From: Photobacterium atrarenae | GTDB lineage: Bacteria; Pseudomonadota; Gammaproteobacteria; Enterobacterales; Vibrionaceae | Length of the DNA: 64,000 nucleotides | Assembly: GCF_024380015.1 (NCBI RefSeq) | Contig: NZ_CP101509.1 | Coordinates: 1,054,001-1,118,000, forward strand | Reading direction: 5' to 3' | Part shown: positions 8,987 through 64,000 of the stretch, one piece after another | Position numbering within the stretch: position 1 is the first letter of the stretch | Layout of the letters: every line of letters starts with the position of its first letter | Notes under the pieces: generated by a model | The model's database searches: none | Seen by the model: the letters and a program-made list of their open reading frames with translations, nothing else | What the model was told of the DNA's origin: nothing | Position numbers and translations under genes: made by a program

Positions 8987-9075
8987 TGAAGAATAACGGT
9001 GGGTGTGAAATGGCGTCTGAGGCCGTGGCCGAGTTGCTTCGGGGTCGTTGAATGGCTTCAGCGTCGTGATTTGCT

Positions 9076-11559: not shown

Positions 11560-11572
11560 GAAAAACTTACAA

Positions 11573-12466: not shown

Positions 12467-12496
12467 TTGATGATAGGGTGATTTTAGATAGGAATA

Positions 12497-12524
12497 TTAT
12501 CGGGGACGTGGTTGCCCCCGATAA
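12497..12524. terminator. Terminator hairpin between convergent genes
   Basis: A 9-bp stem (12497-12505 with 12516-12524, TTATCGGGG and its complement) with a ten-base loop lies between the LysR stop and the end of the outer-membrane-protein gene. The flanking sequence is A/T-rich on the minus-strand exit side, so it can serve the minus gene and perhaps both. Confidence 0.6.
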
Positions 12525-12535
12525 GCGTGACAGGC

Positions 12536-13105: not shown

Positions 13106-13294
13106 TATATGTTCCTAGTTTGATATAACCGCGCAGGAGCATATAGACTAAATCATTCTTTATGAATGGCTTTTTCTTGCTTGTGTGAATTATGTCAATA
13201 TTCCTGACATATTTGATCGTTGAATACATTAGCTTTGTATAAAAAATCCTCGATTCGACAGAGGGGCTATAGTTAGTCCTTTAGGCGGCAGGGC

Positions 13295-14227
13295 TTATGC
13301 CTTGAAAATCAATGAATCAGGGTAAAAAGCGTACCAGGCAAACCAATAGAGGATTGTGGTTGTGAGCAGTTGACCTTGCGGGTCTGTGATCCAGGCTGAT
13401 TGATTGTCCTTGTCCCAGTGAATGAGGAGTCGGTTACCTTCAAAGGTGTATGAAAATTTTGGCTTATCTTGTTTTCTTAATTCTGAAAACGGAAAGGCGA
13501 TGACGCTATTTTTTCCTTTATATCCCAACACGGTTTCTTTAGTTGGATAGCTGGCGGGTGCCTGATTGGCAACCGGGAAATAGAGGCGAGGGGAGCGGGC
13601 GTACCCAGCGTAGGGATCTTGCTGATAGTTGCGGACATAGCCGGTTTGGGTCGACAGCACCAGCGTTGCCGGATGTGCTTCACGCCAGGCCTGCCAGCGG
13701 GTCAAAGTCAGCGGGTATTGTTGGAGTGAGCGGCCTGATAACGAACCACTAATCGCCTTGCCCCGGATTTGCGACCAGAGCGATTCGGTCTGATGGTCAT
13801 ACATCAACACATCCGAATTGTAGAGTAATCCAGAGACGCCGAATGTCAAAGTCCGTCCCTGTTGTTTTGAAAGAAAAGCCATCCCGGAGCCGCAGAGCGG
13901 GCAGTAACTGACGATAAATGAACGGCCCTTGATTTTGTCATTCACAATCTCGTGCCAGTTCAGAATTTTGATTGGATAGGCTTTACTGACCCCACCCATG
14001 GAGAGGCCTAAGATCACATCATCAGGGGATAAAAACCGGGCTTGACTGGCAGCAACAAAGCGAGGCTTCAGAATTGCCGGAATGCCGTCTTTTCCCGGAC
14101 CGCCGGATAAAATTTGCGACGCGGGAATGGTCAGGTTATCGAGAATAAAGCTATTGAAAGGCGCAGCCTGTAAACTCAAGGGTAAAGCGAAAAACAGTCC
14201 GTACAGCAAAGCCAATATCAGTTTCAT
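13295..14227 (-). CDS. DUF3179-domain exported protein
   Basis: A 310-residue protein with a cleavable signal peptide ending LQAAPF. The core is a DUF3179 domain: PRFVAASQARFLSPDDVILGLSMGGVSKAYPIKILNWHEIVND, then the hallmark SYCPLCGSGMAF, and LLYNSDVLMYDHQTESLWSQIRGKAISG. The CPLCG motif is conserved in the family and suggests metal or redox chemistry, but the activity is not known. It is probably periplasmic. A second, membrane-anchored DUF3179 protein lies at 30916 with the motif altered. It is transcribed alone on the minus strand, downstream of the serine hydrolase gene. Confidence 0.87.
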   Translation of the reverse strand: MKLILALLYGLFFALPLSLQAAPFNSFILDNLTIPASQILSGGPGKDGIPAILKPRFVAASQARFLSPDDVILGLSMGGVSKAYPIKILNWHEIVNDKIKGRSFIVSYCPLCGSGMAFLSKQQGRTLTFGVSGLLYNSDVLMYDHQTESLWSQIRGKAISGSLSGRSLQQYPLTLTRWQAWREAHPATLVLSTQTGYVRNYQQDPYAGYARSPRLYFPVANQAPASYPTKETVLGYKGKNSVIAFPFSELRKQDKPKFSYTFEGNRLLIHWDKDNQSAWITDPQGQLLTTTILYWFAWYAFYPDSLIFKA

Positions 14228-46772: not shown

Positions 46773-47108
46773 ACCAATCTCCTTGATGACCACGTTTAAG
46801 ACTGGGATCCATGATATCGGTTTACGGTATTGCACAACCGTATGTCCATCACACTCCTATATCATAACCATATAAAATAAAAGGACATTTGTTATGGACT
46901 GACTGTGCTTGTAATGCGTTAGTTGTGGGTTGTGTGGCCGGAGTTAAGCAGCTGGAAGCTGGGTGTTAAATAAGTCAGGGTTGTACATAAAACGAGCGGT
47001 TGGTTCCTGATGCAGGTGGCTTTGCCCGGTAAACGTAAGGTAAGTCACTAAAATATAATCATTTGCTGTCTACACTGAGGATATCTGAGGTCATAAAGAG
47101 GGATGTTT
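46773..47108. promoter_or_regulatory. Divergent intergenic region, with a probable Lon-like promoter
   Basis: 336 bases between the divergent Dcu and Lon-like genes. No ORF is seen. CTACACT at 47070-47076 fits a sigma-S-type -10 for the Lon-like gene (start at 47109). I did not find a clear FNR site (TTGAT-N4-ATCAA) for the Dcu gene. Confidence 0.4.
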
Positions 47109-49484
47109 ATGTCAGTGAAACCTCTGCGCAGTGACAAACTGTATCGCGCATCAGCCCTGAACGGGCTGGCGGCGGACTGTACCTCGACCAAGCATTTAAC
47201 ACCGCTGGATGAAATTGTGGGCCAGGAACGGGCCCAGAAGGCGGTGGAGTTTGCCATGTCGATAAAAGAAAAGGGCTACAACATCTACGCCATCGGCCGC
47301 AACGGGCTGGGGAAGCGGACGATGATTTTGCGGTATCTGAACCGGCATGATCCCAACGGCAGCAGCGTGCCGTTGTATGACTGGTGCTACGTGGCGAACT
47401 TTGAAGAAACCCGCAGCCCGAATGTGCTGAAGTTGCCGCCGGGAACCGGTCATCAGTTCAAAAAAGAGATTGAAAAACTGATGACCCGGCTGGTCAAGGC
47501 GTTGCCGCTGGCGTTTGACAACGAGATGTATTACAGCCGCTCGGAAACGCTGAAAAACCAGCTGACCCAGAAGCAGGAGAGCTCGCTGCTGACGCTGACC
47601 AATGAAGCCAAAGAGAAAAGCGTCAGCCTGTCATTGACCACCCAGGGCGAATACCAGCTGGTGGCGATGAACGGCGAAGAGCCGCACACCGAAGAAAGTT
47701 TTGCAGAGCTGTCGGATGAAGAGCAACAGCAGTTTGATCACATCATCAGCGATCTGGAGAAAAAGCTGCGGGGGATCGTGCGTCAGCTGACGGAAATGGA
47801 GGAAGAGTTTTCCGATAAAATCCAGAAGCTGAATGAGGAAGTGGCGCTGGATGTGGTGGTGCACTTTATCAAGCCGTTGAAAAAAGTCTACAAAGGGCTG
47901 CCTGAGGTCAAAGCCTATCTCACGGCGATGCAAAAAGACATTCTGGAAAACCTGGACATCTTTCTCGAAGAGAGTGAAGAGCAGGTGGCGCTGGCCTACG
48001 CTGCGCTGGATAAGAAAATGCCGCGCCGCTACCAGGTGAATGTGCTGGTGAACCAGGATCCGGAGGCCAAATTTCCGATCGTGGTGGAAGACAGTCCGAG
48101 CTATCACTCAATTTTTGGCTATGTCGAAAACGCCACCTACAAAGGTACGGTGTTTACCGACTTTTCACTGATCCGCGCCGGCAGCCTCCACCGTGCCAAT
48201 GGCGGCGTGTTGCTGATGGATGCGGTCAAAGTGTTGGAACGACCGTATGTCTGGGATGGCCTCAAACGTGCGCTGCGGGCTCGCAAGCTGAATGTGAATT
48301 CGCTGGAGCGCGAAGTGACGTTGTCCGGCACCATTTCGCTGGAGCCGGAAGATATTCCGCTCAACGTGAAGATTATTCTGTTCGGGGACTATCAGACCTA
48401 TCAGCTGCTGCAGCAGTACGATCCGGATTTCAGCGAGTTGTTCCGGGTGACCGCCGATTTTGAAGATGAAATGGCGCGCACGGATGCATCAGAGGAGCAG
48501 TATGCCCGGTTCATTTCCAGCATCGTCAATGAGAGCGAGATGCTGCACTGTGACCGCAAGGCGATTGCCCGGATTATCGATTACAGCTCTCGGCAGGCGG
48601 GGGATCAGAACAAGCTGTCGCTCCACTCAGCCGATATTGCCAACTTACTGCGTGAGAGTAATTACGTGGCGAAATCATCCAAGGCGACGATGATCCGTGC
48701 CAACCACGTTGAGCAGGCGCTGCAGAGTCAGGAAATGCGGGTGAGCCGGCTCAAAGATCAGGTGATGCAGACATATCAAAATGGCACCACCCTAATTGAT
48801 ACTCAGGGCGCGGTGATCGGCCAGATCAACGGCTTGTCGGTGATCTCGACCACAGATTATCAGTTCGGTGCGCCGAACCGGATCACCGCCAGCACCGCGT
48901 TCGGCGATGGCGAAGTATTCGATATCGAGCGCCAGGTCAAGCTGGGCGGGCGGATCCACTCCAAAGGCGTGATGATCCTGTCTTCTTACCTGGCGTCGGT
49001 CTTTGGCCGGACCAAAGCCATTCCGCTCAAAACCCACCTGACCTTCGAGCAGTCTTACGGTGGCGTGGACGGCGACAGTGCGTCAATGGCGGAGTTGTGC
49101 GCCATTGTGTCAGCGTTTTCCCATATGCCATTACGTCAGGATGTGGCGATCACCGGTTCCATGAACCAGTTCGGTCAGGCGCAGCCGATAGGCGGGGTCA
49201 ACGAGAAAATCGAAGGCTTCTTTGATGTCTGCGTGATTAAGGGACGTCAGCCGACGCAAGGGGTGATTATTCCGCAGTCCAATGCCCATAACCTGATGCT
49301 GCGTAAAGATGTGGTCGAGGCGGTGGAAAAAGGCGAGTTCCATATCTGGGCGATTAGCCATGTCTCGGAAGCGATTGAGATCCTGACCGGCAAGCCTGCC
49401 GGAGCATGGTCGGAAGAGACTGGCTATCCGCTCGATTCCGTATTCGGCCAAGCGCAGGTCAAGCTGAATGCGCTGCGGGTTTAG
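47109..49484 (+). CDS. Lon-like ATP-dependent protease (LonB/YcbZ type)
   Basis: A 791-residue cytoplasmic protease of the Lon_2/YcbZ family, without the LON N-terminal domain of true Lon. An ATPase part contains a Walker A-like GRNGLGKRT near residue 60 and LHRANGGVLLMDAVKVL as Walker B, interrupted by a long coiled-coil insertion (about residues 120-290). The C-terminal Lon protease domain has the catalytic serine in YGGVDGDSASMAELC and the lysine in PIGGVNEKIEGFFDVC. The start at 47109 has GAGGG seven bases upstream; 47103 is too close to it. Family function is proteolysis of damaged or specific proteins; physiological substrates are not known. Confidence 0.9.
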   Translation: MSVKPLRSDKLYRASALNGLAADCTSTKHLTPLDEIVGQERAQKAVEFAMSIKEKGYNIYAIGRNGLGKRTMILRYLNRHDPNGSSVPLYDWCYVANFEETRSPNVLKLPPGTGHQFKKEIEKLMTRLVKALPLAFDNEMYYSRSETLKNQLTQKQESSLLTLTNEAKEKSVSLSLTTQGEYQLVAMNGEEPHTEESFAELSDEEQQQFDHIISDLEKKLRGIVRQLTEMEEEFSDKIQKLNEEVALDVVVHFIKPLKKVYKGLPEVKAYLTAMQKDILENLDIFLEESEEQVALAYAALDKKMPRRYQVNVLVNQDPEAKFPIVVEDSPSYHSIFGYVENATYKGTVFTDFSLIRAGSLHRANGGVLLMDAVKVLERPYVWDGLKRALRARKLNVNSLEREVTLSGTISLEPEDIPLNVKIILFGDYQTYQLLQQYDPDFSELFRVTADFEDEMARTDASEEQYARFISSIVNESEMLHCDRKAIARIIDYSSRQAGDQNKLSLHSADIANLLRESNYVAKSSKATMIRANHVEQALQSQEMRVSRLKDQVMQTYQNGTTLIDTQGAVIGQINGLSVISTTDYQFGAPNRITASTAFGDGEVFDIERQVKLGGRIHSKGVMILSSYLASVFGRTKAIPLKTHLTFEQSYGGVDGDSASMAELCAIVSAFSHMPLRQDVAITGSMNQFGQAQPIGGVNEKIEGFFDVCVIKGRQPTQGVIIPQSNAHNLMLRKDVVEAVEKGEFHIWAISHVSEAIEILTGKPAGAWSEETGYPLDSVFGQAQVKLNALRV

Positions 49485-49577: not shown

Positions 49578-50840
49578 TCAGCCGCGCGCGAGCTTGTGGT
49601 GGGCACGCGAGAAGTGGCCGGCACAAAAAGCGCCGACGATCGACAGCTCGCCCGCCAGGCACAGGGTGGCGCAGACTTCGGCCAGCGCCTGCGACTGGCC
49701 GCTACCGGCCAGGCCAAGCAGATCCAGACAGGCATGCTGGCTCGGCAGGGAGGTGCCGCCGCCGACGGTGCCCAGCATCAGGTTCGGCAGCGTCACCGAA
49801 GCATAAAGATCACCATTCCGAGCCACCTCAATCCGGGTGATACCGACCGCTGACTCAGCCACGCAGGCGGCGTCCTGGCCGCAGGCAATATAAAACGCAG
49901 CCAGGGCATTGGCATAATGGGCGTTGATCCCGATGCTGCCGCTGAGCGTGCCGCCGACTGTGGTCATGCGGGTGAAGTCGGCCATTTGCTCGGGGGTGGT
50001 GTGGAGATACTGTTTCACCAGTGCCGGACTGATGTGAACTTCAGCCGTGACTTTCTTGCCGCGCACACTGCGCAGGGTCTGTGCGGTGGCTTTTTTATCG
50101 CCGGACAGGTTGCCGTCCAGATAGGCCTGCTCGGGTTTCACCGGGGTATTGTGGAGAATATATTCAAACACCGCGTTGGTCGAAATGGTCACCATGTTCT
50201 GGCCTGACGCATCGCCGGTCAGATATTCGAACACCAGGTAAACGTGGTTGCCTTCAATGTTGACACTGATATCCGACAGTTTGCCGTGGCGGGTCGTGGA
50301 CTCGGCCACTTGCTTGAAGTCGCCATACCGGGTGACGGCCCAGGCGACGAACTGCCCGGCGTGGGCCAGATCGGCAAAGGCAAAGCATGGCGTGCGGGTG
50401 ACCCCTTCGTTCAGCAACATGGCGGTGGCCCCGCCGGCCTGGGTGATCAGCTGGGCGCCGCGATGATATGAAGCAACCAGGGCTGCTTCCGAGGTCGCCA
50501 GTGGTACGGTGTAGTCGCCTTGGGCAAACAGGCCGTTGACGCGCAGCGGTCCGGCAATCCCGACCGGCAGTTTGACCGTGCCGATAAAGTTTTCGATATT
50601 TTTCTGATAGCGGGACATTTGCGCCTGCGTCGCGGGATCGAGCAACTGGGCTTTGGCGCCGTCGTTGTCCAGGATCTGCCAGCGCTTCGCCACACTGTTT
50701 GGGGTCAGGAACGGGGAGCGGGGAAGTTTCCGCACCGGGGTGGTGTGATCCGGGCTCAGGCGTTGCTGCATTTCTTCGGCAGACAAATGGCTGAGCACGG
50801 AGGTCAGGTAATCCCGGCGGTGCAGGTTGAGTTTCGGCAT
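49578..50840 (-). CDS. Hydroxymethylglutaryl-CoA reductase
   Basis: A 420-residue class I-type HMG-CoA reductase. Motifs are FIGTVKLPVGIAGPLRVNG, the glutamate in LATSEAALVASYHRG, GDASGQNMVTI for cofactor, GNLSGDKKATA with the lysine, GSIGINAHYANALAAFYIACGQDAA, and a C-terminal AGHFSRAHHKLARG with the general-acid histidine. It reduces HMG-CoA to mevalonate with NADPH. No other mevalonate-pathway gene is adjacent. HMG-CoA reductase in vibrios is known to be a horizontally acquired gene, and this one has the same class. It is convergent with the Lon-like gene and shares its strand with the XRE regulator upstream. Confidence 0.92.
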   Translation of the reverse strand: MPKLNLHRRDYLTSVLSHLSAEEMQQRLSPDHTTPVRKLPRSPFLTPNSVAKRWQILDNDGAKAQLLDPATQAQMSRYQKNIENFIGTVKLPVGIAGPLRVNGLFAQGDYTVPLATSEAALVASYHRGAQLITQAGGATAMLLNEGVTRTPCFAFADLAHAGQFVAWAVTRYGDFKQVAESTTRHGKLSDISVNIEGNHVYLVFEYLTGDASGQNMVTISTNAVFEYILHNTPVKPEQAYLDGNLSGDKKATAQTLRSVRGKKVTAEVHISPALVKQYLHTTPEQMADFTRMTTVGGTLSGSIGINAHYANALAAFYIACGQDAACVAESAVGITRIEVARNGDLYASVTLPNLMLGTVGGGTSLPSQHACLDLLGLAGSGQSQALAEVCATLCLAGELSIVGAFCAGHFSRAHHKLARG

Positions 50841-53423: not shown

Positions 53424-53567
53424 TTCAGCCTCCGGAGCTCTGTTGGTCTATCAGACAGTTTGGTCTACCGGCGGCTGATTTTTCCACTTAGATCTGAAAT
53501 TTATCGGTAGTTGGGTTGGCAAGGCGAAGGGGAAAACGGGCATGGAGTGATAAACCGCTGATCGGGA

Positions 53568-53942
53568 TCAGCGGTCGGCATGGGTCCGGTAGTGATAACG
53601 CACGACTACCATCCCCTGATACTCAATTTGACCAGGATCGCGGGACAGCTCCTGAACGGTGACATAGCTGTCGTCGATCTTGACCGACCGGACATCGAGT
53701 CGGTTGACGGGCACCCGCAGGGTCCGGTGCAGCTGATAGGCACTCTGGCGTGACAATGCAGATTTGATTTGATGGCCCTGCTGATAGGCGGTTTCTTTGC
53801 TTGCCACCAGGTCGGTCCGCAGGGTTGAAGTGCCGTTCTGGCGTTGATAGCGGTCGATCGACTCAAAGTGATCGGCGGCAAGGCCGGTGCTCAATAAAGT
53901 GCCGAGAAATACCAGGGCGGGGATCGTGAGGTTTTTGTTCAT
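53568..53942 (-). CDS. DUF3316-like exported small protein
   Basis: A 124-residue protein with a signal peptide (IPALVFLGTLLSTGLAADHF). The mature part, RTDLVASKETAYQQGHQIKSALSRQSAYQLHRTLRVPVNRLDVRSVKIDDSYVTVQELSRDPGQIEYQGMVVVRYHYR, fits the DUF3316 family, which is common in vibrios and predicted to be periplasmic. Function is unknown. Assignment is from pattern and length only. It is monocistronic; the divergent dmdA-like operon starts 310 bases away. Confidence 0.6.
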   Translation of the reverse strand: MNKNLTIPALVFLGTLLSTGLAADHFESIDRYQRQNGTSTLRTDLVASKETAYQQGHQIKSALSRQSAYQLHRTLRVPVNRLDVRSVKIDDSYVTVQELSRDPGQIEYQGMVVVRYHYRTHADR

Positions 53943-54251
53943 AGCTGTTCTCCTCCACGCGAAGTCTGAGTATGTAAGACAGTGAGTCTGTCGCGGCTGG
54001 AGGAAATCGCGCAGTCTGCCTCGTGATGTGCCCCTACTTTTTGTGAGTTATTTTAGAACGCTAATTTATATTCCTAATTTTACGACTGAAGGTCCGGGGC
54101 CGCAAATCATGCGGGTCTGAAAGTCCCCCGAAAGAAGTAGTCGTCTGTCGTCGCGACGCTTTTAGTGCGTTTTATGTCGTAGACGGACAGCTTGATTTAC
54201 CCAGAAGCGTCACATTTAAGGGGGACACCATAAGGGAATGAGGGCTACGAA
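53943..54251 (+). promoter_or_regulatory. Upstream region of the demethylation operon with structured leader
   Basis: A 309-base gap before the demethylase gene. At 54082-54144 an RNA of nested helices can form: ACGACT (54082-54087) with AGTCGT (54139-54144) outside, CGGGG (54095-54099) with CCCCG (54126-54130), and CCGC (54100-54103) with GCGG (54111-54114) around a seven-base loop. A 10-base palindrome CGTCGCGACG follows at 54149-54158. It could be a riboswitch-type leader or an operator; I recognise no family. No ORF is present. Confidence 0.4.
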
Positions 54252-55589
54252 ATGACCAAGTACGACAGACGTTTACTGCAAGCTCGCGCTGGCGCCGCGC
54301 GGCATGAAAGCCGGGTGGATCAATCTCACCGCCGAGTGCCGATCAATCTCAGGCAATCCGGTCCGACGCCGGTCGAAATGCTGATTTCGACCCGGGTACG
54401 TAAATCGCCATACTGGCATTTATCGGTGGAAGCCGGTTGCTGGCGGGCGACCGTGTATAACCGGATTTATCACCCGCGTGGTTATGTGCTGCCGGAAGAT
54501 GGCGGCGCCATGGTGGAGTATGACTCGCTGGTGAACGATGTCACGATGTGGAATGTGGCGGTGGAGCGCCAGATTCAGGTCAAGGGACCGGATGCCGAAG
54601 CCTTTGTCGATTACGTGATCACCCGCGACGCGACCAAGATCGAGCCCATGCACGGCAAATATGTGATTTTGTGCAACGACGAAGGCGGAATCCTTAATGA
54701 TCCGGTGTTGCTGCGTCTGGCTGAGGATGAGTTCTGGTTCTCAATTTCCGACAGTGATCTGGAGATGTGGCTGCGCGGGGTCAATATCGGCAAGCAGTTC
54801 GATGTCTCGATCGCGGAAATTGATGTTGCCCCGGTGCAAATCCAGGGGCCGAGGTCGGAAGCCCTGATGGTGGATCTGTTCGGGAGTGCGGTCAGCGAAA
54901 TTCCGTACTACGGCCTGATGGAAGCGGAGATCGCTGGCTGTGATGTGGTGATTTCGCAAACCGGCTTTACCGGAGAGAAAGGTTATGAAATCTACTGTCG
55001 CAATGTGACCGAAAATGCCGAAAAACTTTGGTACACCGTGTTGGAAGCCGGCAAAGCCCACAATCTGCGGGTGATCGCCCCGGCCCATCACCGCCGGATT
55101 GCCGCCGGGATCCTCTCCTGGGGACAGGATGTGGATCAGGAAACCCTGCCGTTCCAATGTAACCTGGCTTACCAGGTGCCGCGGAATAAAGCAGCGGATT
55201 ATATCGGCAAAGCCGCGTTGGAGCAGGCCCGGACGCAGATTGAAGCTGGTAACCCGCCCTTTACCCTGACCATGGTCGGCCTGGTGCTGGGCGGCGAGCC
55301 GGTGACCGATTATGCCAACGACTTCTGGCTGGTGTATGACGAGGCTGAACAGGCACCTCTGGGCTATGTTTCTTCCCCTTGGTATTCACCGGAGCTGCAA
55401 ACCAACATCGCCCTGGCGCATGTACCCTGGACAATGCGCTCGGTCGGGAACCGGTTCATGGTCGCACTGCCTTCGGAGTATGGCGGTGAGCTGGTGGCCG
55501 CGGAAGTGGTGAATGTCCCGTTCCGGCCTTCGGTGAACCCGAATTCGCGGGAAGTGGCGAAATCACGCGGCAGTGATTTTGTCGATTAG
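54252..55589 (+). CDS. GcvT/DmdA-family tetrahydrofolate-dependent demethylase
   Basis: A 445-residue enzyme of the GcvT (T-protein) superfamily. RVRKSPYWHLSVEAGCWRATVYNRIYHPRGY, LVNDVTMWNVAVERQIQVKGPDAEAFVDYVITRD, KYVILCNDEGGILNDPVLLRLAEDEFWFSISDSDLEMWLRGVNIG, VQIQGPRSEALMVDLFG and SQTGFTGEKGYEIYCRN follow the pattern of DmdA, the dimethylsulfoniopropionate demethylase, more closely than glycine-cleavage T protein. Such enzymes move a methyl or methylene group to tetrahydrofolate. Here it heads an operon with MetF-like and formate-THF ligase genes and dgcAB, so the methyl donor is probably a betaine, sulfonium or related osmolyte; DMSP, glycine betaine and others are all possible. The first 45 residues before TPVEML are an unusual arginine-rich extension. 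Confidence 0.8.
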   Translation: MTKYDRRLLQARAGAARHESRVDQSHRRVPINLRQSGPTPVEMLISTRVRKSPYWHLSVEAGCWRATVYNRIYHPRGYVLPEDGGAMVEYDSLVNDVTMWNVAVERQIQVKGPDAEAFVDYVITRDATKIEPMHGKYVILCNDEGGILNDPVLLRLAEDEFWFSISDSDLEMWLRGVNIGKQFDVSIAEIDVAPVQIQGPRSEALMVDLFGSAVSEIPYYGLMEAEIAGCDVVISQTGFTGEKGYEIYCRNVTENAEKLWYTVLEAGKAHNLRVIAPAHHRRIAAGILSWGQDVDQETLPFQCNLAYQVPRNKAADYIGKAALEQARTQIEAGNPPFTLTMVGLVLGGEPVTDYANDFWLVYDEAEQAPLGYVSSPWYSPELQTNIALAHVPWTMRSVGNRFMVALPSEYGGELVAAEVVNVPFRPSVNPNSREVAKSRGSDFVD

Positions 55590-55644
55590 TCACTATGCAC
55601 GAGAAGCTATGCGCGAAAAGCCATGCACCAAAAGCCATGCACGT
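55589..55644 (+). repeat. Four tandem 14-base repeats between dmdA-like and MetF-like genes
   Basis: Units at 55589-55602, 55603-55616, 55617-55630 and 55631-55644 share the pattern AAGCYATGCRCSA (the first is diverged). Each contains an ATG and they end 13 bases before the MetF-like start codon. They could influence translation or be slippage products. Confidence 0.6.
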
Positions 55645-55657
55645 AACGGGAGCAGTA

Positions 55658-56542
55658 ATGAAGCCAGATGCCTTACAACATCCCGGTTGGGAGCATTACG
55701 AAGTCGATGTCGAGCCGACCATGCGCCAGCTGATGGCACAGGCTTCACTGGAAGCGACGCCGAGCCAGGTGCTGGGACTGGCCGCTGCGCCGGAATGGCT
55801 GATGCCGGGGACCCGGATTTATGTCCCCTTCCTGCCCAAAAGCCGGTTTGAGGAGACGCTGGCGGCCTGTGAGCGACTGCAACAGTGGGGGATGGTCGCC
55901 ATTCCCCATATTCCGGCCCGTGCGGTCCCCGGGGAAGCGCAGTTATCGCAGTGGCTGACATCGCTGATCGGGCTCGGGGTCTATCACATCCTGCTGATTG
56001 CCGGCGAGCGGGCGACGCCTGCCGGGCCGTTTGCCAACACCCTGGCACTGCTGGCCTCCGGGATCCTGGCCCAGTTTCCGCTGCAGGGGATCGGGGTGGC
56101 AGGGCATCCGGAGGGGCATCCGGTGGCAACGCTCGATGAGCTATCCGATGCCCTGATCTTCAAACGGGAGTATGCCCGGGCCAACCAGGTTGAGTTATGG
56201 ATTGTGACCCAGTTCAGCTTTGATCCCGATATCGTGATCCACTGGCTGGAAAGCTACCGTGAGCTGCTTGGTCCGGTGCCGGTGTATCTGGGGATGCCGG
56301 GGCCGACCCGGCTCAAGAACCTGCTGTTTTATGCCGCCCAGTGTGGCGTGGTGGCTTCCATGGCTGCCCTGCGCCGGAATATGAACGCCGCGCAATTGCT
56401 TAAGCCCTGGACGCCTGCGCCACTGGTTGAGGCCATGGCCCGGTATCAGATGATGAATCCGGCGACGCCGTTTCGCGGCATTCATTTGTATCCCTTCGGG
56501 GGGTTGAAGCAGTCTGCGTACTGGCTGCAAGGGAAACAATGA
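55658..56542 (+). CDS. Methylenetetrahydrofolate reductase-like protein
   Basis: A 294-residue protein resembling MetF. GVYHILLIAGERATPAGPFANTLALLASG, IGVAGHPEGHP and VTQFSFDPDIVIHWLESY match the core flavin and folate region of methylenetetrahydrofolate reductase, and FRGIHLYPFGGLKQSAYWL its C-terminal strand. The N-terminus lacks the EFFPP motif with the catalytic glutamate of E. coli MetF, so it is a divergent type. In an operon with a THF-dependent demethylase its likely role is to oxidise 5-methyl-THF to 5,10-methylene-THF, by analogy with the ligM-metF-ligH set of Sphingobium. The ATG at 55658 has GGGAG upstream and starts 68 bases after the demethylase gene; the longer frame from 55595 is unlikely. 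Confidence 0.72.
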   Translation: MKPDALQHPGWEHYEVDVEPTMRQLMAQASLEATPSQVLGLAAAPEWLMPGTRIYVPFLPKSRFEETLAACERLQQWGMVAIPHIPARAVPGEAQLSQWLTSLIGLGVYHILLIAGERATPAGPFANTLALLASGILAQFPLQGIGVAGHPEGHPVATLDELSDALIFKREYARANQVELWIVTQFSFDPDIVIHWLESYRELLGPVPVYLGMPGPTRLKNLLFYAAQCGVVASMAALRRNMNAAQLLKPWTPAPLVEAMARYQMMNPATPFRGIHLYPFGGLKQSAYWLQGKQ

Positions 56543-56644
56543 CTAGGGCAATTGCTTAAGGTCATTTGAGACACATGATAAACACTGCCGGCGCGGTGCC
56601 GGTTGCAAGCCTGTGACCGGACAACTTGGCTGGAGGAGGTGGCG

Positions 56645-58366
56645 GTGAAGAACGAGATGAATATAGCCCTGATCCCGCCGGATAATATCCCGCCGCCCGG
56701 TGCGACGGATCTTGAGATCGCCCGGGCGGTGACGCCAAAACCCGTGATCGAGATTGCGGCGGAGCGGCTGGGCCTGCTGCCGCATCAGCTGATCCCCTAT
56801 GGTCATTACAAAGCCAAGGTGGACTTGATGCAGCTCGATGTCAGCCAGCCAAGAGGTAAGCTGGTGCTGGTCACCGCCATGACCCCGACCCCTGCCGGGG
56901 AGGGGAAAACCACCACCAGTATTGGCCTCTGCGATGGCCTGAATGCGCTCGGGATCAATACCAGTGTTTGTCTGCGTGAGCCTTCACTCGGCCCTTGTTT
57001 CGGAATGAAGGGGGGCGCGGCTGGTGGCGGTCGGGCGCAGGCGATCCCGATGGAAGATCTCAACCTGCATTTTAACGGTGATTTTCATGCGGTGACGGTT
57101 GCCCACAACCTGCTGGTTTCCCTGATTGATAACCACTTGCACTGGGGCAATGAGCTGGCGCTCGACCCACGCCAGATCAGCTGGCGGCGGGTGATGGATC
57201 TTAATGAACGGGCGCTGCGCAATATTGTCTGTGGGTTAGGTGGCACCGCCCATGGGATACCGCGTGAGTCCGGGTTCGATATTACCGTGGCTTCGGAAAT
57301 TATGGCGGTGTTGTGCCTGGCCGAAGATCTGCACGACCTCCAGCTGCGCCTCAGTGCGATGGTGATCGGAAGGCGGCGGGATGGCAGCGTGGTGACGGCG
57401 GGTGAGCTGGGCGCCGATGGTGCCCTGACCGTATTGCTGAAAGACGCCATGATGCCGAACCTGATCCAGAGCCTGGAGCACAACCCGGTGCTGGTGCATG
57501 GCGGTCCGTTTGCCAATATCGCCCATGGTTGCAGCTCGCTGATGGCGACCCGGACTGCGCTGGCCCTGACGGATGTGGTGATCACCGAAGCCGGTTTCGG
57601 GGCTGATCTCGGGGCTGAGAAGTTTTTGGATATCAAATGCCGGTTGTCGGGGTTGGCCCCGGATGCGGTGGTGCTGGTGTGTACGATCCGGGCGCTGAAA
57701 ATGCAGGGCGGGATCGCCAAGGCTGATTTAGCCCTGCCCGATGTGGTGGCGGTGGAAGCCGGCTCGGTCAACCTGTTGCGTCATATCCGGAATGTGCAGC
57801 AGTTCGGCTTGACCCCGCTGGTTGTGGTGAACCGGTTTCCGACTGACAGCGATGAAGAGCTGGCAGTGATTCAGCGCTGCGGGCTCGCCTCCGGGGTACG
57901 GGTGGTGTCTGCCGAACACTGGGCTCGCGGCAGCGACGGGGCGCAGGCGCTGGCCCTGGCAGTGCAGGAGCAATTGTCTGCGCCGAAGCCTGAGCTGACC
58001 TTGCTTTATCCCGATGAGATGCCGCTGGATGAGAAAATCTATACCGTCGCGACCCGGATGTATGGCGCCGGGGAGGTGCAGTACAGCTCGGCGGCATACC
58101 GTCAGCTGGAGGAGATCCATCAGCTCGGATTCGGCCACCTGCCGGTCTGTATTGCCAAGACGCCGTACAGTTTTTCTTCAGAACCGGCGATCCTGGGTGC
58201 GCCGGTCAATCACACCCTGCCGGTACGAGAGCTGCGCCTGATGGCCGGGGCCGGGTTCGTGGTGGCGGTGTGCGGCGACATTATGACCATGCCGGGGCTG
58301 CCCCGTCACCCGGCGGCGCTGAATATCCGGCTGGATGAGCGGGGTGAGATTATCGGCTTGTGCTAA
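56645..58366 (+). CDS. fhs: Formate-tetrahydrofolate ligase
   Basis: A 573-residue cytoplasmic enzyme linking formate, THF and ATP to give 10-formyl-THF. TPTPAGEGKTTTSIGLCDGLNALG is the ATP-binding P-loop, EPSLGPCFGMKGGAAGGGRAQAIPMEDLNLHFNGDFHAVTVAHNLL the folate/ATP segment, and VRELRLMAGAGFVVAVCGDIMTMPGLPRHPAA the conserved C-terminal block. Length matches the family. In a demethylation operon it probably runs toward formate, recovering ATP from formyl-THF. The GTG at 56645 follows GGAGGAGG by five bases; a TTG at 56603 is further upstream. It begins 102 bases after the MetF-like gene. Confidence 0.93.
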   Translation: MKNEMNIALIPPDNIPPPGATDLEIARAVTPKPVIEIAAERLGLLPHQLIPYGHYKAKVDLMQLDVSQPRGKLVLVTAMTPTPAGEGKTTTSIGLCDGLNALGINTSVCLREPSLGPCFGMKGGAAGGGRAQAIPMEDLNLHFNGDFHAVTVAHNLLVSLIDNHLHWGNELALDPRQISWRRVMDLNERALRNIVCGLGGTAHGIPRESGFDITVASEIMAVLCLAEDLHDLQLRLSAMVIGRRRDGSVVTAGELGADGALTVLLKDAMMPNLIQSLEHNPVLVHGGPFANIAHGCSSLMATRTALALTDVVITEAGFGADLGAEKFLDIKCRLSGLAPDAVVLVCTIRALKMQGGIAKADLALPDVVAVEAGSVNLLRHIRNVQQFGLTPLVVVNRFPTDSDEELAVIQRCGLASGVRVVSAEHWARGSDGAQALALAVQEQLSAPKPELTLLYPDEMPLDEKIYTVATRMYGAGEVQYSSAAYRQLEEIHQLGFGHLPVCIAKTPYSFSSEPAILGAPVNHTLPVRELRLMAGAGFVVAVCGDIMTMPGLPRHPAALNIRLDERGEIIGLC

Positions 58367-58461
58367 CGGATTGTTACAGCACATGATGCCAGCGACCGGA
58401 GCGCTGAGCGCTTCAATCGGGCGAACACGTAGGGAAAGCAGATTGAATGGGGGAGATGAGG

Positions 58462-59442
58462 ATGTCTGACGCGATGCAACTGCACCAGCAGTCGATCATT
58501 ATTGACGGACTGGTCATTGCCAAATGGGACCGGGCGTTGTTTGAGGACATGGCCCGGGGCGGAGTGACTACGGCCAACTGTACCGTCTCCGTGTGGGAAG
58601 GGTTTCAGGCCACGGTTGATAATATCGTCGAGTTTAACCAGTTTTTCAACGAACATGATGACTTGATTAGGCCGGTTCGCAGCACCCGGGATATCTACCG
58701 GGCCAAGGAAGAAGGCAGAACCGGGGTGATACTCGGCTTTCAGAATGTCCAGGCGTTTGAAGATCAGCTCGGTTATATCGAGATCTTCAAACAGCTCGGG
58801 GTCGGGATCGCGCAAATGGCCTATAACACCCAGAACCTGGTCGGTACCGGCTGTTATGAGCGCGACGGCGGCCTGTCCGGGTTCGGCCATGAAGTGGTCG
58901 CGGAGATGAACCGGGTCGGCATCATGTGCGATTTGTCTCATGTCGGCGACAAAACCTCGCAGGAGGTGATCCTGGCGTCTGAAAAACCGGTCTGTTATTC
59001 CCACTGCCTGCCGCTCGGGCTTAAGGAGCACCCGCGCAATAAGTCGGATGAAGCTCTGAAGTTTATCGCCGATCACGGCGGGTTCATCGGTGTCACTATG
59101 TTTTCACCGTTTCTGAAAAACGGGATCCACTCCACCATTGAGGACTATGTCGAGGCGATTGACTACATCGTCAATCTGGTCGGGGAAGACTGCGTCGGGA
59201 TCGGCACCGATTTTACCCAGGGCCAGGATCAGGCGTTCTTCGAGTGGCTGACCCATGACAAAGGGTATGCCCGGCGTTTAACCCGGTTCGGCGAAATCAT
59301 CAACCCCAAAGGGATCCGTACCCTCGGTGAGTTTCCCAACCTGACCCGAGCGCTGCTGGCCCATGGCTGGTCGGAAAGCCGGGTGCAAAAAATCATGGGC
59401 GAGAACTGGGTGCGGGTGCTGAAAGATGTCTGGCATGAATAA
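58462..59442 (+). CDS. M19-family dipeptidase-like protein of the dgc cluster
   Basis: A 326-residue TIM-barrel protein of the M19 (renal dipeptidase) family. GVTTANCTVSVWEGFQATVDNIVEFNQFF, VGIAQMAYNTQNLVGTGCYE, IMCDLSHVGDKTSQEVILAS, PVCYSHCLPLGLKEHPRNKSDEAL and CVGIGTDFTQGQDQAFFEW follow the family. The zinc site is altered: the N-terminal HxD is replaced (DGLVIAKWD), and the bridging glutamate region reads GFQNVQAFED. Pseudomonas dgc clusters carry the same kind of gene at this place, and its real reaction is unclear. The ATG at 58462 has GGGGGAG six bases upstream; a start at 58447 is less likely. Confidence 0.83.
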   Translation: MSDAMQLHQQSIIIDGLVIAKWDRALFEDMARGGVTTANCTVSVWEGFQATVDNIVEFNQFFNEHDDLIRPVRSTRDIYRAKEEGRTGVILGFQNVQAFEDQLGYIEIFKQLGVGIAQMAYNTQNLVGTGCYERDGGLSGFGHEVVAEMNRVGIMCDLSHVGDKTSQEVILASEKPVCYSHCLPLGLKEHPRNKSDEALKFIADHGGFIGVTMFSPFLKNGIHSTIEDYVEAIDYIVNLVGEDCVGIGTDFTQGQDQAFFEWLTHDKGYARRLTRFGEIINPKGIRTLGEFPNLTRALLAHGWSESRVQKIMGENWVRVLKDVWHE

Positions 59443-59494
59443 CCTGAAGGCCTGACTGCTGCTGCCGCTTGCGTTGCCGTGAAAGGAGAAACTG

Positions 59495-60133
59495 ATGTCG
59501 ATGCGATCACCGAACACCCACAGCCCGGAAGTGCCGATTGAAGTGGAGGACGAGACTGGGATCTGGCGAACCAACGGGCTGCCGATGCTGTATGTACCGC
59601 GCCATTTTCTGATCAATAACCATGACGCGGTGGAGAAGGCGCTGGGCATGGAAAAGTATGCCGCCATTTTGTATGACGCCGGGTATCAGTCGGCGTATCA
59701 CTGGTGTGAGCAGGCATCGCAGACCCTCGGGTTGCACGGCGCGGCCGTGTTTGAGCACTACATGCTGCGGTTGTCGCAGCGCGGCTGGGGACAGTTCACC
59801 GTCGAGCAGCTCGACGTCGCTCAGGGACGAGCCCGGATACGGCTGGCCCATTCGGCGTTTGTCTGCCACTACGGCAAGGTGGATCGCAAAGTCGATTACA
59901 TGTTTACCGGCTGGTTTGCCGGTGCCATGGATCAGATCACCCAACAGCTCGGACAGCCTATCGCAACGGTCGCGGTTCAACGGCAAAGCGAAGCGGAGAT
60001 TGGCTGTGATTACGGGGTGTTTGAAGTCATGCCGAAAGCTCGGGTACAGGACTATATTCCCGAGCAGGCTTTGGAGCCGGTGCAGATTCAGGTACAGGCT
60101 CAGGGCCGAGGTCAGGATCGGGACAGGGAGTAA
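59495..60133 (+). CDS. DUF5943-domain protein of the dgc cluster
   Basis: A 212-residue protein matching the DUF5943 gene that lies between the dipeptidase-like gene and dgcA in Pseudomonas. GLPMLYVPRHFLINNHDAVEKALGMEKYAAILYDAGYQSAYHWCEQASQTLGLHGAAVFEHYMLRLSQRGWGQFTVEQLD has the V4R-like alpha/beta fold, and HSAFVCHYGKVDRKVDYMFTGWFAGAMDQI the following helix. It is soluble, with a low-complexity Q/R/D-rich tail (VQIQVQAQGRGQDRDRE). Function is unknown but operon conservation ties it to dimethylglycine catabolism. The start at 59495 has AAAGGAG upstream. Confidence 0.82.
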   Translation: MSMRSPNTHSPEVPIEVEDETGIWRTNGLPMLYVPRHFLINNHDAVEKALGMEKYAAILYDAGYQSAYHWCEQASQTLGLHGAAVFEHYMLRLSQRGWGQFTVEQLDVAQGRARIRLAHSAFVCHYGKVDRKVDYMFTGWFAGAMDQITQQLGQPIATVAVQRQSEAEIGCDYGVFEVMPKARVQDYIPEQALEPVQIQVQAQGRGQDRDRE

Positions 60134-60142
60134 GGAGTCACT

Positions 60143-62203
60143 ATGGCGCAATTTGACGCAATCTTTCAGCCGCTGGCGATCAACCAGCTGATGATCCGCA
60201 ACCGCATCGTCAGTACCGCCCATGCCGAAGTCTATGCCACCGACAATGGCATGCCGACCGAGCGCTATATCCGCTATTACGAGGAGAAAGCCAAAGGCGG
60301 CATCGGGCTGTGCATTTGCGGTGGCTCAAGCCCTGTCTCGATTGACAGCCCGCAGGGCTGGTGGAAGTCGGTGAACTTAACTACGGATGCGGTGATCCCG
60401 CATTTGCAGCGGCTGGCGGATGCTGTTCATCGTCACGGCGCTCACATCATGATCCAAATTACCCACATGGGGCGTCGCTCCCGCTGGGATGGTGGTGACT
60501 GGCCCCACTTGCTCAGCCCGAGCGGGATCCGCGAGCCGGTACACCGGGCCACCTGCAAAACCATCGAGCCGGAAGAGATTGAGCGGATCATAGCCAACTT
60601 TGCCGCGGCGGCGCGCCGGGTCAAAGCTGCCGGGTTTGACGGGGTGGAGTTGTCGGCAGTGCATCAGCACTTGATCGATCAGTTCTGGAGCCCGCGGGTG
60701 AATCATCGCACCGATGAGTGGGGCGGCAGTTTCGAAAACCGGCTGCGGTTTGGGCTTCGGGTGCTGGAAGCGGTGCGGGCGGAAGTCGGGCCTGATTTTG
60801 CAGTCGGGATGCGGATTTGCGGCGATGAGTTTCATCCCGACGGTCTGACCCATGAAGACATGAAGGCCATTGCTGGCTACTACGATGCGACCGGGATGGT
60901 GGATTATTTCGGCGTGGTGGGCTCGGGCTGTGACACCCACAATACCCTGGCCAATGTGATCCCCAATATGACCTATCCGCCGGAGCCGTTTCTGCATCTG
61001 GCGGCCGGGATCAAGCAAGTCGTGAATGTGCCGGTGATCCATGCTCAGAGCATCAAAGATCCAATCCAGGCCGAGCGGGTGCTTGAAGCCGGGTATGTCG
61101 ATTTTGTCGGCATGACCCGGGCCCATATTGCCGATCCGTACCTGATCGCCAAGGTCCGGCTTGGCCAAGTGGATCAGATCCGTCAGTGTGTTGGCGCCAA
61201 CTACTGTATTGACCGGCAATATCAGGGGCTGGATGTGTTGTGCTTGCAAAATGCCGCAACTTCCCGCGAAGCGACCATGCCGCATATGATCAGCAAAACC
61301 CGTGGGCCAATCCGCCGGGTGGTGGTGGTCGGCGGTGGCCCGGCCGGGATGGAAGCGGCGCGGGTCTGTGCTGAGCGCGGTCACGAGGTGGTTTTGTTCG
61401 AAAAAGCAGGCGAGTTGGGCGGGCAGATCACTCTGGCAGCCAAAGCGCCGCAGCGGGAGCAAATCGCCGGGATCACCCGTTGGTTTGCGCTTGAACTCAG
61501 CCGGCTTGCAGTGACGCTGAAACTGGACACCGAAGCGGATGCCGAACAAATCCTGGCTGAACAGCCGGATGTGGTGATCCTGGCCGTCGGCGGTGAGCCG
61601 TTTGTCGATCAGTATCCGGGTTGGGGCGCCCGGGATGGCCTGGTGGTTAGCAGCTGGGACGTGCTGAGCGGCCGGGTGGCACCGGGGAAAAATGTGCTGG
61701 TGTACGACACCATTTGTGAGTTCAGCGGGATGTCGGTGGCGGATTATCTGGCCTCGAAAGGCGCGCTGGTCGAGCTGGTCACTGATGATATCAAGCCCGG
61801 TGTGGCGATTGGCGGCACCACCTTTCCCACCTATTACCGCAGCCTTTATGAGCGGGAGGTGATCATGACGCCTGATCTGCGCTTGGATCAGGTCTACCGT
61901 GAAGGAGACCGCGTGATTGCCCGGCTGGAGAATGAATATACCCAGCAGCAGGAAGAGCGGGTGGTGGATCAGGTGGTGATTGAAAATGGGATCCACCCCA
62001 GTGAGCAGCTTTATTACCAGCTTAAAGCGGCCTCGCTGAATCACGGCCAGATGGATTTAGAGGCGTTGTATGCTGCCGAGCCGCAGCCGGATCTGAGCCG
62101 CCATGGCGAAGGCTATCTGCTGTACCGGATCGGCGATTGTGTGTCACAGCGTAACATTCACGCGGCGATCTATGATGCCTTGCGGCTGTGTAAGGACTTC
62201 TGA
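60143..62203 (+). CDS. dgcA: Dimethylglycine catabolism protein DgcA
   Basis: A 686-residue flavoprotein of the old-yellow-enzyme/trimethylamine-dehydrogenase group. Residues 1-370 are the FMN TIM barrel (FQPLAINQLMIRNRIVSTAHAEVY, QITHMGRRSRW, GVELSAVHQHLIDQFWSPRVNHRTDEWGGSFENRLRF). QCVGANYCIDRQYQGLDVLC holds cysteines 349, 355 and 367 of the iron-sulfur site, alanine 352 being where TMADH has its second cysteine. Residues 395-686 are the FAD/NAD-type domains (RRVVVVGGGPAGMEAARVCAERGHEV). With DgcB it demethylates N,N-dimethylglycine to sarcosine, passing electrons onward and releasing formaldehyde-level carbon. It starts nine bases after the DUF5943 gene, with TAAGGAG upstream. Confidence 0.93.
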   Translation: MAQFDAIFQPLAINQLMIRNRIVSTAHAEVYATDNGMPTERYIRYYEEKAKGGIGLCICGGSSPVSIDSPQGWWKSVNLTTDAVIPHLQRLADAVHRHGAHIMIQITHMGRRSRWDGGDWPHLLSPSGIREPVHRATCKTIEPEEIERIIANFAAAARRVKAAGFDGVELSAVHQHLIDQFWSPRVNHRTDEWGGSFENRLRFGLRVLEAVRAEVGPDFAVGMRICGDEFHPDGLTHEDMKAIAGYYDATGMVDYFGVVGSGCDTHNTLANVIPNMTYPPEPFLHLAAGIKQVVNVPVIHAQSIKDPIQAERVLEAGYVDFVGMTRAHIADPYLIAKVRLGQVDQIRQCVGANYCIDRQYQGLDVLCLQNAATSREATMPHMISKTRGPIRRVVVVGGGPAGMEAARVCAERGHEVVLFEKAGELGGQITLAAKAPQREQIAGITRWFALELSRLAVTLKLDTEADAEQILAEQPDVVILAVGGEPFVDQYPGWGARDGLVVSSWDVLSGRVAPGKNVLVYDTICEFSGMSVADYLASKGALVELVTDDIKPGVAIGGTTFPTYYRSLYEREVIMTPDLRLDQVYREGDRVIARLENEYTQQQEERVVDQVVIENGIHPSEQLYYQLKAASLNHGQMDLEALYAAEPQPDLSRHGEGYLLYRIGDCVSQRNIHAAIYDALRLCKDF

Positions 62204-62260
62204 CTAGGGGTGGAAGAATCGGGAGTTGGAAGAATCGGCTTGGATCTGCCGGGAGGAGCG

Positions 62261-64000
62261 ATGGTGGCAACCTGGATAACTGCATTGTTGTGGCTGAGTC
62301 TGCTGGTGATGGGGGTTGGCGCGGTGCGCCGGATCCGCCTCTGGCGCCAGGGGCGGCCGAACCCGGTGCCTTTCTGGACCGGACTGGTCAGCGTGCCGCG
62401 ACGCTATCTGGTGGATTTGCATCACGTGGTGGCGCGGGATCCGGCGATGGCGACCACCCATGTCGCCACCGCGGGCGGCTTTGTTGCTGCGATGGTGTTG
62501 CTGATCGGGATCTATCTGCTCGGACTGGCGTCCAGCTTTTTTCATGTCCTGTTGCTGATGGCCTGCGGCGTGATGTTGATTGGCGCGCGAAGAGTCGCCC
62601 GGCGGCGTCGGACACCCTTACCGGCACATCTCTCAGCCGGGCCCTGGATGCGGCTGCCGAAAAGCCTGATGGTTTTTGCCGTCACCTTTGTGGCGCTCAG
62701 CATTCTGGCACTGGTCGGCGTCGAACAGCTGCCGTGGCTGGGTGTGGTGCTGTTGGTCGCTGTCTTGTGTGTGGCGCTGGCCGATTTGCTGTTTGGCATG
62801 ACCTGGGGCGGACCGATGAAACATGCCTTTGCCGGGGCGCTGCACCTGGCATTTCACCCCCGCCCACAGCGCTTTGGTGGTGGCCGCTCAACCGGACTGA
62901 AACCGCTGGATTTGAGCGCGGACCGGCTCGGAGTGGAAAAAGTGACGGACTTTCACTGGAACCAGCTACTGGGCTTTGATGCTTGTGTCCAGTGCGGCCG
63001 TTGCGAGCAAGCCTGCCCGGCCTTTGCTGCCGGGCAGCCGTTGAATCCGAAGAAACTGGTTCAGGATCTGGTGGTCGGGATGGCGGGCGGTTCAACCGCC
63101 GATTATGCCGGTAGTCCGCATCCGGGCCAGTCGGAGCAGGCTGCGTGCGGCGCACCGGATCAGCCGCTGTTTGCCTCGTTACTTGATCCGGAAACCGTGT
63201 GGTCTTGCACCACTTGTCGGGCCTGCGTCGAAGCCTGTCCGATGATGATTGAACATGTCGATGCCGTGGTCGATCTGCGCCGCCATCTGACGCTGGTTGC
63301 CGGTGCTACTGCTGGCAAAGGTCCGGAGGTGTTGTGTAACCTGATCGCCACCGATAATCCGAACGGCAATCCGCCAACGCATCGCCACAACTGGGCGGTG
63401 GATCTGAATCTGCCGCTGTTGCCGGAAGTGAAGCAAACCGATGTTTTGCTGTGGGTCGGCGACGGCGCATTCGAACGGCGTAATCAACGCACCTTGCGGG
63501 CGCTGGTGGCTCTGCTGCGCCGTGCCGGGGTGGCGTTTGCCGTGCTCGGCAATGATGAGCTCGATTGCGGCGATCTGGCGCGGCGGCTCGGTGATGAAGC
63601 GACATTTCAGCGCCTGGCAACGGCCAATGTCCGCACCCTCAATCAGTATCAGTTTGCGCGCATCGTGACGACTGATCCCCATGCATTTCATGCGCTCAAA
63701 AATGAGTACCCGGACTTTGGTGGCCATTATCGCGTCTGCCACCATACCCAATTGCTGGCCGAGTTGCTGACTGTGCTGGCGGCAGACGGCCGACTGGCGG
63801 ACTCCCCGCTGGCCGGGACGGCATTGACCTATCATGACCCCTGCTATCTGGGCCGCTATAACGGCGAGTATGACGCCCCGCGGCAGGTCTTGCAGGCCTT
63901 GGGCGCAGAGATCAAAGAAATGGACCGCTCCGGCTATCGCGCTCGTTGCTGTGGTGGGGGCGGGGGCGCGCCGGTGACTGATATTCCCGGCAAACAGCGG
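62261..64000 (+). CDS. dgcB: DgcB, iron-sulfur electron-transfer subunit (incomplete)
   Basis: This frame is open to the window end (580 codons), so the stop lies outside. The N-terminus has hydrophobic segments ([58 protein letters not shown] and two more) of the DUF3483-type membrane region. Then come two full 4Fe-4S motifs, [12 protein letters not shown] and [12 protein letters not shown], and CCG-type cysteine motifs, [16 protein letters not shown] and RCCGGGGG. It takes electrons from DgcA to the quinone pool or an ETF. ATG at 62261 follows GGGAGGAG. In other genomes etfA and etfB usually follow; this cannot be seen here. Confidence 0.92.

Follow-up and report, generated by a model that had tools for sequence, protein, structure and literature searches.

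How does a bacterium remove the first methyl group of glycine betaine when genes for removing the later ones are present and the Rieske enzyme GbcAB is not found? This question is raised by a nine-gene plus-strand operon of Photobacterium atrarenae that starts at position 54252 of a 64,000-nucleotide stretch of DNA (C2:1054001-1118000 of a three-contig 5.4 Mb genome; hereafter the window) and extends beyond its end. The operon encodes, in order, a DmdA-like protein (gene 1), a MetF-like protein (gene 2), a formate--tetrahydrofolate (THF) ligase (FTHFS, gene 3), PepD, a DUF5943 protein, DgcA, DgcB, EtfA and EtfB. Its pepD-hp-dgcAB-etfAB part, accompanied by GbdR, matches the conserved pepD-hp-dgcAB-fixAB layout described for Pseudomonas and Vibrio natriegens, which also have gbcA and gbcB (excerpt of PMC12093977). 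A first-pass annotation had placed seven consecutive plus-strand open reading frames here, and we find them at the same positions, the last one running past the end of the window. We think it probable that the operon serves glycine betaine catabolism and that gene 1 replaces GbcAB, passing a methyl group directly to THF.

To see what else might carry out this step, we searched the genome for the glycine betaine demethylation routes named in the excerpted text of PMC12478193, namely GbcAB, Bhmt and MtgBCD. GbcA gave 0 matches at E<=1e-60 in a search in which no control matched; the model does match elsewhere, exceeding its cut-off in 10/50 and 35/245 genomes of other searches. Against the GbcA model (cut-off 670), the genome's sole Ring_hydroxyl_A protein, whose gene lies on the other large contig, reaches 127.6 bits, and we rejected it as a GbcA. 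The MtgB/MTTB family likewise has 0 matches, with a Methanosarcina control matching, and no stand-alone homocysteine methyltransferase of the Bhmt kind was found in the genome, the single S-methyl_trans match lying in a 1229-aa frame of MetH size. With no GbcA and no MtgB-type protein found, and a homocysteine methyltransferase of MetH size only, these searches leave gene 1 as the sole candidate for converting glycine betaine to dimethylglycine. This agrees with the first-pass view that a THF-dependent enzyme, in place of GbcAB, heads the operon.

A clade beside DmdA

Gene 1 belongs to the THF-dependent GcvT/DmdA-fold superfamily, with Pfam matches to GCV_T (139.3 bits, cut-off 25.6) and GCV_T_C (30 bits, cut-off 25.9). 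Its AlphaFold model agrees with solved members of the superfamily, and the closest solved structure among the matches listed is DmdA, the demethylase of dimethylsulfoniopropionate (DMSP); the first 33 residues are barely covered by these matches. The demethylase of trimethylamine N-oxide (TMAO) is not among the fold matches listed, which carries no excluding weight. The best named family model is that of DMSP demethylase (NF009133), at 256.3 bits against a cut-off of 410. Models for GcvT (156.5 vs 300, 137 vs 235.9 and 120.4 vs 459 bits), LigM (36.1 vs 580) and DesA (49.3 vs 800) are also not passed. As the GcvT models are missed and the genome encodes a separate GCV_T protein (287 bits), we rejected the idea that gene 1 is an ordinary GcvT.

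Relatives of gene 1 are numerous: 5059 of 8000 scored candidates reach E 1e-30, paralogues counted in. The nearest named ones are from Photobacterium (88% identity), and named family members carry generic titles such as ‘aminomethyl transferase family protein’. They occur in Gamma- and Alphaproteobacteria, including SAR86 and genomes of 1.2-1.6 Mb, and in records titled as Latescibacterota, Nitrospinota and Actinomycetota genera. In a quick maximum-likelihood tree of 107 rows, which drew a long-branch warning for the outgroup, 87 relatives form a single clade (SH-aLRT 99) and 13 DmdA-like rows, DmdA among them, form a second (SH-aLRT 93). Three loci at ~50-55% identity (L098-L100) fall near the base of these two clades with unsettled placement, and the domains of GcvT, SoxA and dimethylglycine enzymes fall outside both. 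Family models, fold and tree thus agree with the first-pass description of a DmdA/GcvT-family demethylase relative; the tree that it had proposed as a check sets gene 1 apart from the ordinary GcvT proteins.

The residues that separate and join the two clades were counted over 90 rows taken as gene-1-like and 13 taken as DmdA-like. Excerpts of PMC7487153 name a Trp of DmdA as a DMSP-specific contact and a Ser, a Glu and a Tyr of the folate site, and we mapped these positions onto the alignment through residue spacing. In the column of the DMSP-contact Trp, the gene-1-like rows have Phe (88/90) or Trp (2/90) and the DmdA-like rows Trp (9/13) or Tyr (4/13). The folate-site residues S168, E246 and Y248 are kept in 89, 90 and 88 of the 90 gene-1-like rows. 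Position 101 is Asn in 90/90 gene-1-like rows and Asp in 13/13 DmdA-like rows, in the GcvT and SoxA of this genome and in the dimethylglycine enzyme of locus L030; it is a clade signature only. Column 149 is Asn in all rows of both groups (90/90 and 13/13) and Asp in this genome's GcvT and SoxA. The Asp of column 150 is invariant in the gene-1-like rows (90/90), and we take it to correspond to the folate-site Asp of GcvT-type enzymes; two mutant structures among the matches, 3a8k (titled D97N) and 3gsi (titled D552A), probably point to the same column.

The two genes that follow suggest where the methyl group would go. Gene 2 falls below the cut-off of the Pfam MTHFR model (20.4 bits, cut-off 24) and matches the solved methylene-THF reductase 7xg9 at 165 bits, the next MTHFR-named match being at 13 bits. 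We take 7xg9 to be the Sphingobium SYK-6 enzyme. SYK-6 MetF represents a subfamily that favours methyl-THF oxidation and has co-evolved with a LigM-type demethylase (excerpt of PMC13001107, 2026). Gene 3 is a clear FTHFS (domain 813 bits; NF010030 816 bits, cut-off 652). We infer that both enzymes work in the catabolic direction, and the first-pass logic of a metF-FTHFS pair carrying methyl-THF on to formate is supported.

In the pathway that we propose, gene 1 would transfer one N-methyl group of glycine betaine to THF, yielding dimethylglycine and 5-methyl-THF without O2, free formaldehyde or a corrinoid. The gene 2 product would oxidize methyl-THF to methylene-THF, a housekeeping FolD would presumably take this to formyl-THF, and FTHFS would release formate with conservation of ATP. 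DgcAB with EtfAB would then take off the second methyl group, SoxBDAG would take off the last one, and GbdR presumably regulates the operon. Glycine betaine is a likely but unproven substrate of gene 1, whose chemistry we infer. The suggestion of an oxygen-free route holds at most for the first step. In this genome sarcosine falls to heterotetrameric sarcosine oxidase, an O2-using enzyme, so the route as a whole is not oxygen-free.

Neighbours of gene 1 in other genomes

If gene 1 acts on glycine betaine, genes for the products of demethylation might be expected beside its relatives. Among the 80 best gene 1 loci, examined within the fetched stretch, a protein of the dimethylglycine-oxidase/dehydrogenase family (809-1329 aa) is present in 42, MetF in 37, GbdR in 27, FTHFS in 26, and SoxA and SoxB in 15 each. 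Two of those 42 proteins were checked, and both have N,N-dimethylglycine oxidase (1pj5) as the best solved match (763 and 368 bits). In Photobacterium alginatilyticum (L010), SoxB, SoxA and SoxG stand ahead of all nine genes in one stretch. Reading-frame clusters lacking a Pfam match, C9 for example, were left out of account.

Since these 80 loci cover the closest relatives only, we drew genomes by taxon and compared 30 loci of orthologues (~50% identity or more, that of this genome left out) with 38 loci of DmdA-like paralogues from the same draws. Orthologues occur in 9/276 genomes of the class to which this genome belongs (this genome included), in 8/245 genomes of the order of a Marinobacter and in 13/289 genomes of the class of a Rhodospira (centre genome included in both). 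A dimethylglycine enzyme lies within 8.5 kb in 18/30 gene 1 loci and 2/38 paralogue loci (Fisher 1.2e-6), in 16/28 gene 1 loci when the two centre genomes are removed (3.2e-6), and within 4.5 kb in 13/30 versus 2/38 (2.4e-4); contig ends truncate some flanks in either group, and these association tests ignore shared ancestry, a point against our proposal. The other genes follow the same pattern (gene 1 loci versus paralogue loci): MetF 14 versus 3, GbdR 6 versus 0, FTHFS 7 versus 0, SoxA 7 versus 0 and SoxB 6 versus 1.

Set against the ancestry caveat, the dimethylglycine enzymes near gene 1 are of two unrelated types in the same place, FAD-GcvT in 16 loci and DgcA in 2, in addition to the DgcAB operon studied here. 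One locus with ~50% identity to gene 1 (L100) has the order gene 1, GbdR, DgcA, DgcB, EtfA, EtfB; in the alphaproteobacterial draw, two genomes of 1.4 Mb (L148, L150) carry a single run of gene 1, MetF, dimethylglycine oxidase, SoxA and SoxB. Together with the GbdR, dgc, sox, bet and cho genes of this genome, the association with dimethylglycine enzymes bears out the link to glycine betaine catabolism suggested in the first-pass annotation. As a separate observation, the SAR86 loci (L061-L087) carry gene 1 at ~70% identity. Frequent neighbours there are housekeeping genes and genes for an OYE-family protein or for a DAO-family oxidoreductase, which point to no particular substrate; in two of the loci (L086, L087), however, DMGDH-family genes adjoin gene 1.

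Which other routes occur in genomes with gene 1 was also examined. In the 18 genomes with a dimethylglycine gene by gene 1, GbcA is found in 0/18 and an MTTB protein in 2/18 (G815, G392); the Bhmt search covered a minority of these 18. The drawn genomes that do have GbcA (G305, G565) show no dimethylglycine gene near gene 1, nor do two genomes with strong MTTB matches (G236, G138). In a set of 50 genomes with gene 1, GbcA exceeds its cut-off in 4/35 genomes with glycine betaine genes beside gene 1 versus 6/15 without (p = 0.048, labels assigned by hand).

Other possible roles for gene 1

Several observations count against glycine betaine demethylation by gene 1. Direct transfer of a methyl group from a quaternary ammonium compound to THF, without a corrinoid, is not known to us from any enzyme. 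GbcA exceeds its cut-off in 10/50 genomes with gene 1, with weaker matches in 5 more; two of the 10 are Grimontia with a block from gene 1 to dgcB much like the one described here, one GbcA frame containing a stop codon. Gene 1 and GbcA are thus not strictly exclusive: they co-occur in these 10/50 genomes and in 2/8 gene 1 genomes of the Pseudomonadales-type draw, in which 35/245 genomes overall have GbcA. An MTTB protein occurs in 7/41 genomes without GbcA over cut-off (this genome included) and in 4/25 draw genomes. Stand-alone homocysteine methyltransferases (~300-365 aa) are present in 7/10 Marinobacteraceae and 3/4 SAR86 genomes tested, so Bhmt-type demethylation is possible in those organisms. 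One of these enzymes, in a Marinobacter (G282:C1:1197900-1198739), lies ~10 kb from gene 1 and could be Bhmt or MmuM. Finally, four Halomonadaceae (L048, L049, L055, L057) combine gene1-metF with a separate GbcA, with FTHFS in L055 and L057 and a LysR gene upstream in L057, and 12/30 loci have no dimethylglycine gene nearby. These last two observations suggest that some family members may act on a different substrate; the co-occurrence with GbcA and homocysteine methyltransferases means that the family may have more than one substrate or may provide a second, oxygen-sparing entry.

The same loci give some weight to the alternative that gene 1 demethylates another compound (a betaine, a choline derivative or a sulfonium) and feeds the one-carbon branch, while an unrecognized enzyme, for example the lone Rieske protein, acts on glycine betaine. 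Besides the loci without dimethylglycine genes and the Halomonadaceae, the OYE- and DAO-family neighbours in SAR86 fit it, as does the Rieske protein itself, whose best solved relative is a carnitine monooxygenase (127 bits) and whose homologues (44-48%) lie near gene 1 in two loci (L152, L054). In this operon and in 18/30 loci, however, the neighbours act on precisely what glycine betaine demethylation would yield, and the Rieske gene has no dimethylglycine or sarcosine neighbours and its product is more than 500 bits short of the GbcA cut-off. We regard this alternative as possible but doubtful. The Rieske cluster (L112, G000:C1:1709000-1728900, 5376-14201) also contains a BCCT transporter, an aldehyde dehydrogenase, a rubredoxin-NAD reductase and a pipecolate-oxidase-like protein, with a LysR-type regulator recognized by eye; it may serve another N-methyl betaine-type pathway, perhaps one linked to homarine.

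In a second alternative, gene 1 would be a THF-linked scavenger that turns formaldehyde or the methylene iminium from DgcAB into methylene-THF, a role played in dimethylglycine oxidase and SoxA by a fused GcvT-like domain. The GcvT-type fold, the absence of a GcvT domain from DgcA and DgcB, and the invariant Asp at column 150 are all compatible with this. Yet gene 1 also adjoins FAD-GcvT dimethylglycine enzymes that have such a domain built in, and its MetF partner (14/30 versus 3/38) suggests methyl-THF, not methylene-THF, as the product. In addition, DmdA, the nearest characterized relative, moves a methyl group, and the Asn of column 149 is shared with the DmdA-like rows and not with the GcvT or SoxA of this genome. 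On the strength of the MetF partner and the enzymes with built-in domains we rejected the scavenger, which we consider very improbable. That gene 1 is simply a DmdA placed in an osmolyte operon and demethylates DMSP deserves scarcely any credence: the best named model, the closest fold and the marine relatives point that way, but the model's cut-off is missed, Phe replaces the DMSP-contact Trp and the neighbours are glycine betaine catabolism genes, so we rejected this reading, and DMSP, one of the substrates first suggested, is unlikely.

Genomic setting and comparison with known systems

The coordinates of the operon and its surroundings are collected below. Extending the sequence past the window, as the first-pass annotation had proposed, revealed etfAB downstream and choXWV after betIBA. 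A sox cluster (with glyA, sdaA and purU) is present at another location on the same contig; its SoxA scores 1466 bits (cut-off 1164).

Features of the operon and its flanks (window positions; those marked b lie beyond the window, with its numbering continued)
Feature	Positions	Strand	Assignment and basis
Intergenic region 5′ of gene 1	53424..54251		Probable promoter region
Gene 1	54252..55589	+	DmdA-like, GCV_T + GCV_T_C, 445 aa; proposed THF-dependent glycine betaine demethylase (Pfam domains, family models, tree, fold)
Gene 2	55595..56542	+	MetF-like, 7xg9 type; proposed methyl-THF to methylene-THF (weak MTHFR match, 7xg9 match; direction by analogy with excerpt of PMC13001107)
Gene 3	56603..58366	+	FTHFS (family models); formate + ATP direction proposed
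Gene 4	58447..59442	+	M19 dipeptidase, pepD of dgc block (Peptidase_M19 domain)
Gene 5	59495..60133	+	DUF5943 protein, hp of dgc block (Pfam domain)
Gene 6	60143..62203	+	DgcA, FMN/FAD dimethylglycine dehydrogenase subunit (Oxidored_FMN + FAD/NAD domains; gene order as in excerpt of PMC12093977)
Gene 7	62210..64000 in window, true end 64201	+	DgcB (DUF3483 + Fe-S + CCG)
etfA	64198-65577 b	+	Follows dgcB
etfB	65495-66391 b	+	Follows etfA
gbdR	66401-67522 b	-	NF052371, 523 bits, cut-off 480
betI	68067-68669 b		
betB	68737-70200 b		
betA	from 70266 b		Followed by choX, choW, choV

The nine genes are separated by 5, 60, 80, 52, 9, 6, -4 and -83 bases; the start of etfB, which produces the last overlap, is probably called too early. 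No Rfam match was found in the region upstream of gene 1, which contains a single short direct repeat and a perfect 10-base inverted repeat (53554-53575). Elsewhere in the window are an HMG-CoA reductase gene (49578-50840, minus strand; PF00368, 394 bits), here in a gammaproteobacterial genome, and a LonB/LonC-like AAA+ protease (47103-49484, plus strand). At locus L007, the sox cluster and a peptide-type ABC transporter flank a reverse-transcriptase reading frame (5371-6684, minus strand) that by eye resembles a group II intron protein.

Beyond this operon, we favour, with some reserve, a broader proposal: that gene 1 represents a widespread, unnamed family that moves the first methyl group of glycine betaine directly to THF without O2, corrinoid or homocysteine, so that bacteria would have a fourth route in addition to GbcAB, Bhmt and MtgBCD, built on a DmdA-like scaffold with a rebuilt substrate side (Phe for Trp, Asn101 for Asp and an extra N-terminal segment). 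No report of the family as a glycine betaine demethylase was found in a literature search whose scope excluded most subscription journals and bioRxiv preprints. Glycine betaine is among the most abundant marine osmolytes. If correct, the proposal would give a new bacterial entry into its breakdown, with a DMSP-demethylase-like enzyme in place of an O2-using one, and would explain glycine betaine use by bacteria that lack the known routes and have dimethylglycine and sarcosine genes. Removal of the first methyl group would cost none of the O2 and NADH used by GbcAB and would release no free formaldehyde, in line with known chemistry. THF would accept a quaternary-ammonium methyl group without a corrinoid, one protein performing the net reaction of MtgBCD. 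The gene would also serve as a new marker in metatranscriptomes; markers of glycine betaine use are called poorly resolved in the excerpted text of PMC12478193 (2025).

Several known systems resemble this one in part. The closest is DmdA, the THF-dependent DMSP demethylase of Pelagibacter and Ruegeria, nearest among solved relatives in both sequence and fold, which shares with gene 1 the motif W-[DN]-V-A-x-E-R-Q, the Asn-Asp pair at 149-150 and the folate-site Ser, Glu and Tyr positions. Gene 1 differs in forming a separate clade, in its N-terminal extension of VDQSxRxVPxNLRQSG type, in Asn101 for Asp and Phe for the DMSP-contact Trp, in its betaine gene neighbours and in not passing the DmdA model. 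In the LigM-metF-ligH system of vanillate O-demethylation in Sphingobium SYK-6, the demethylase gene is likewise followed by MetF and FTHFS genes, and the same oxidation of methyl-THF is proposed here. The GbcAB-DgcAB-GbdR pathway of Pseudomonas and Vibrio natriegens shares the pepD-hp-dgcAB-etfAB block, GbdR and the bet and sox genes; here, in contrast, no gbcA is found and a THF cassette heads the operon.

The net reaction proposed is that of MtgBCD, the glycine betaine:cobalamin:THF methyltransferase of Desulfitobacterium and Ruegeria, which also has a MetF paralogue (excerpt of PMC12478193). Unlike MtgBCD, gene 1 is a single GcvT-fold protein; the operon lacks a gene for a corrinoid protein, and the genome gave no match to the MttB family. 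TMAO demethylase (Tdm) and the GcvT-domain amine oxidases share the folate-binding GcvT fold and act on N-methyl compounds; in these enzymes, however, the GcvT domain deals with formaldehyde or methylene groups, and gene 1 stands alone as a DmdA-like protein. A loosely similar proposal already in print concerns SAR11_1303, an uncharacterized GcvT-like aminomethyltransferase near opuABC, which was suggested from its gene neighbourhood to act in glycine betaine metabolism; the excerpted text of that study has Bhmt carry out the first demethylation (Sun et al. 2011, PMC3160333). The demethylenases BrdA/SesA and the demethylase DesA are further GcvT-family proteins recruited to THF-dependent catabolic reactions, although their substrates are aromatic methylenedioxy or methoxy compounds (excerpt of PMC5547118).

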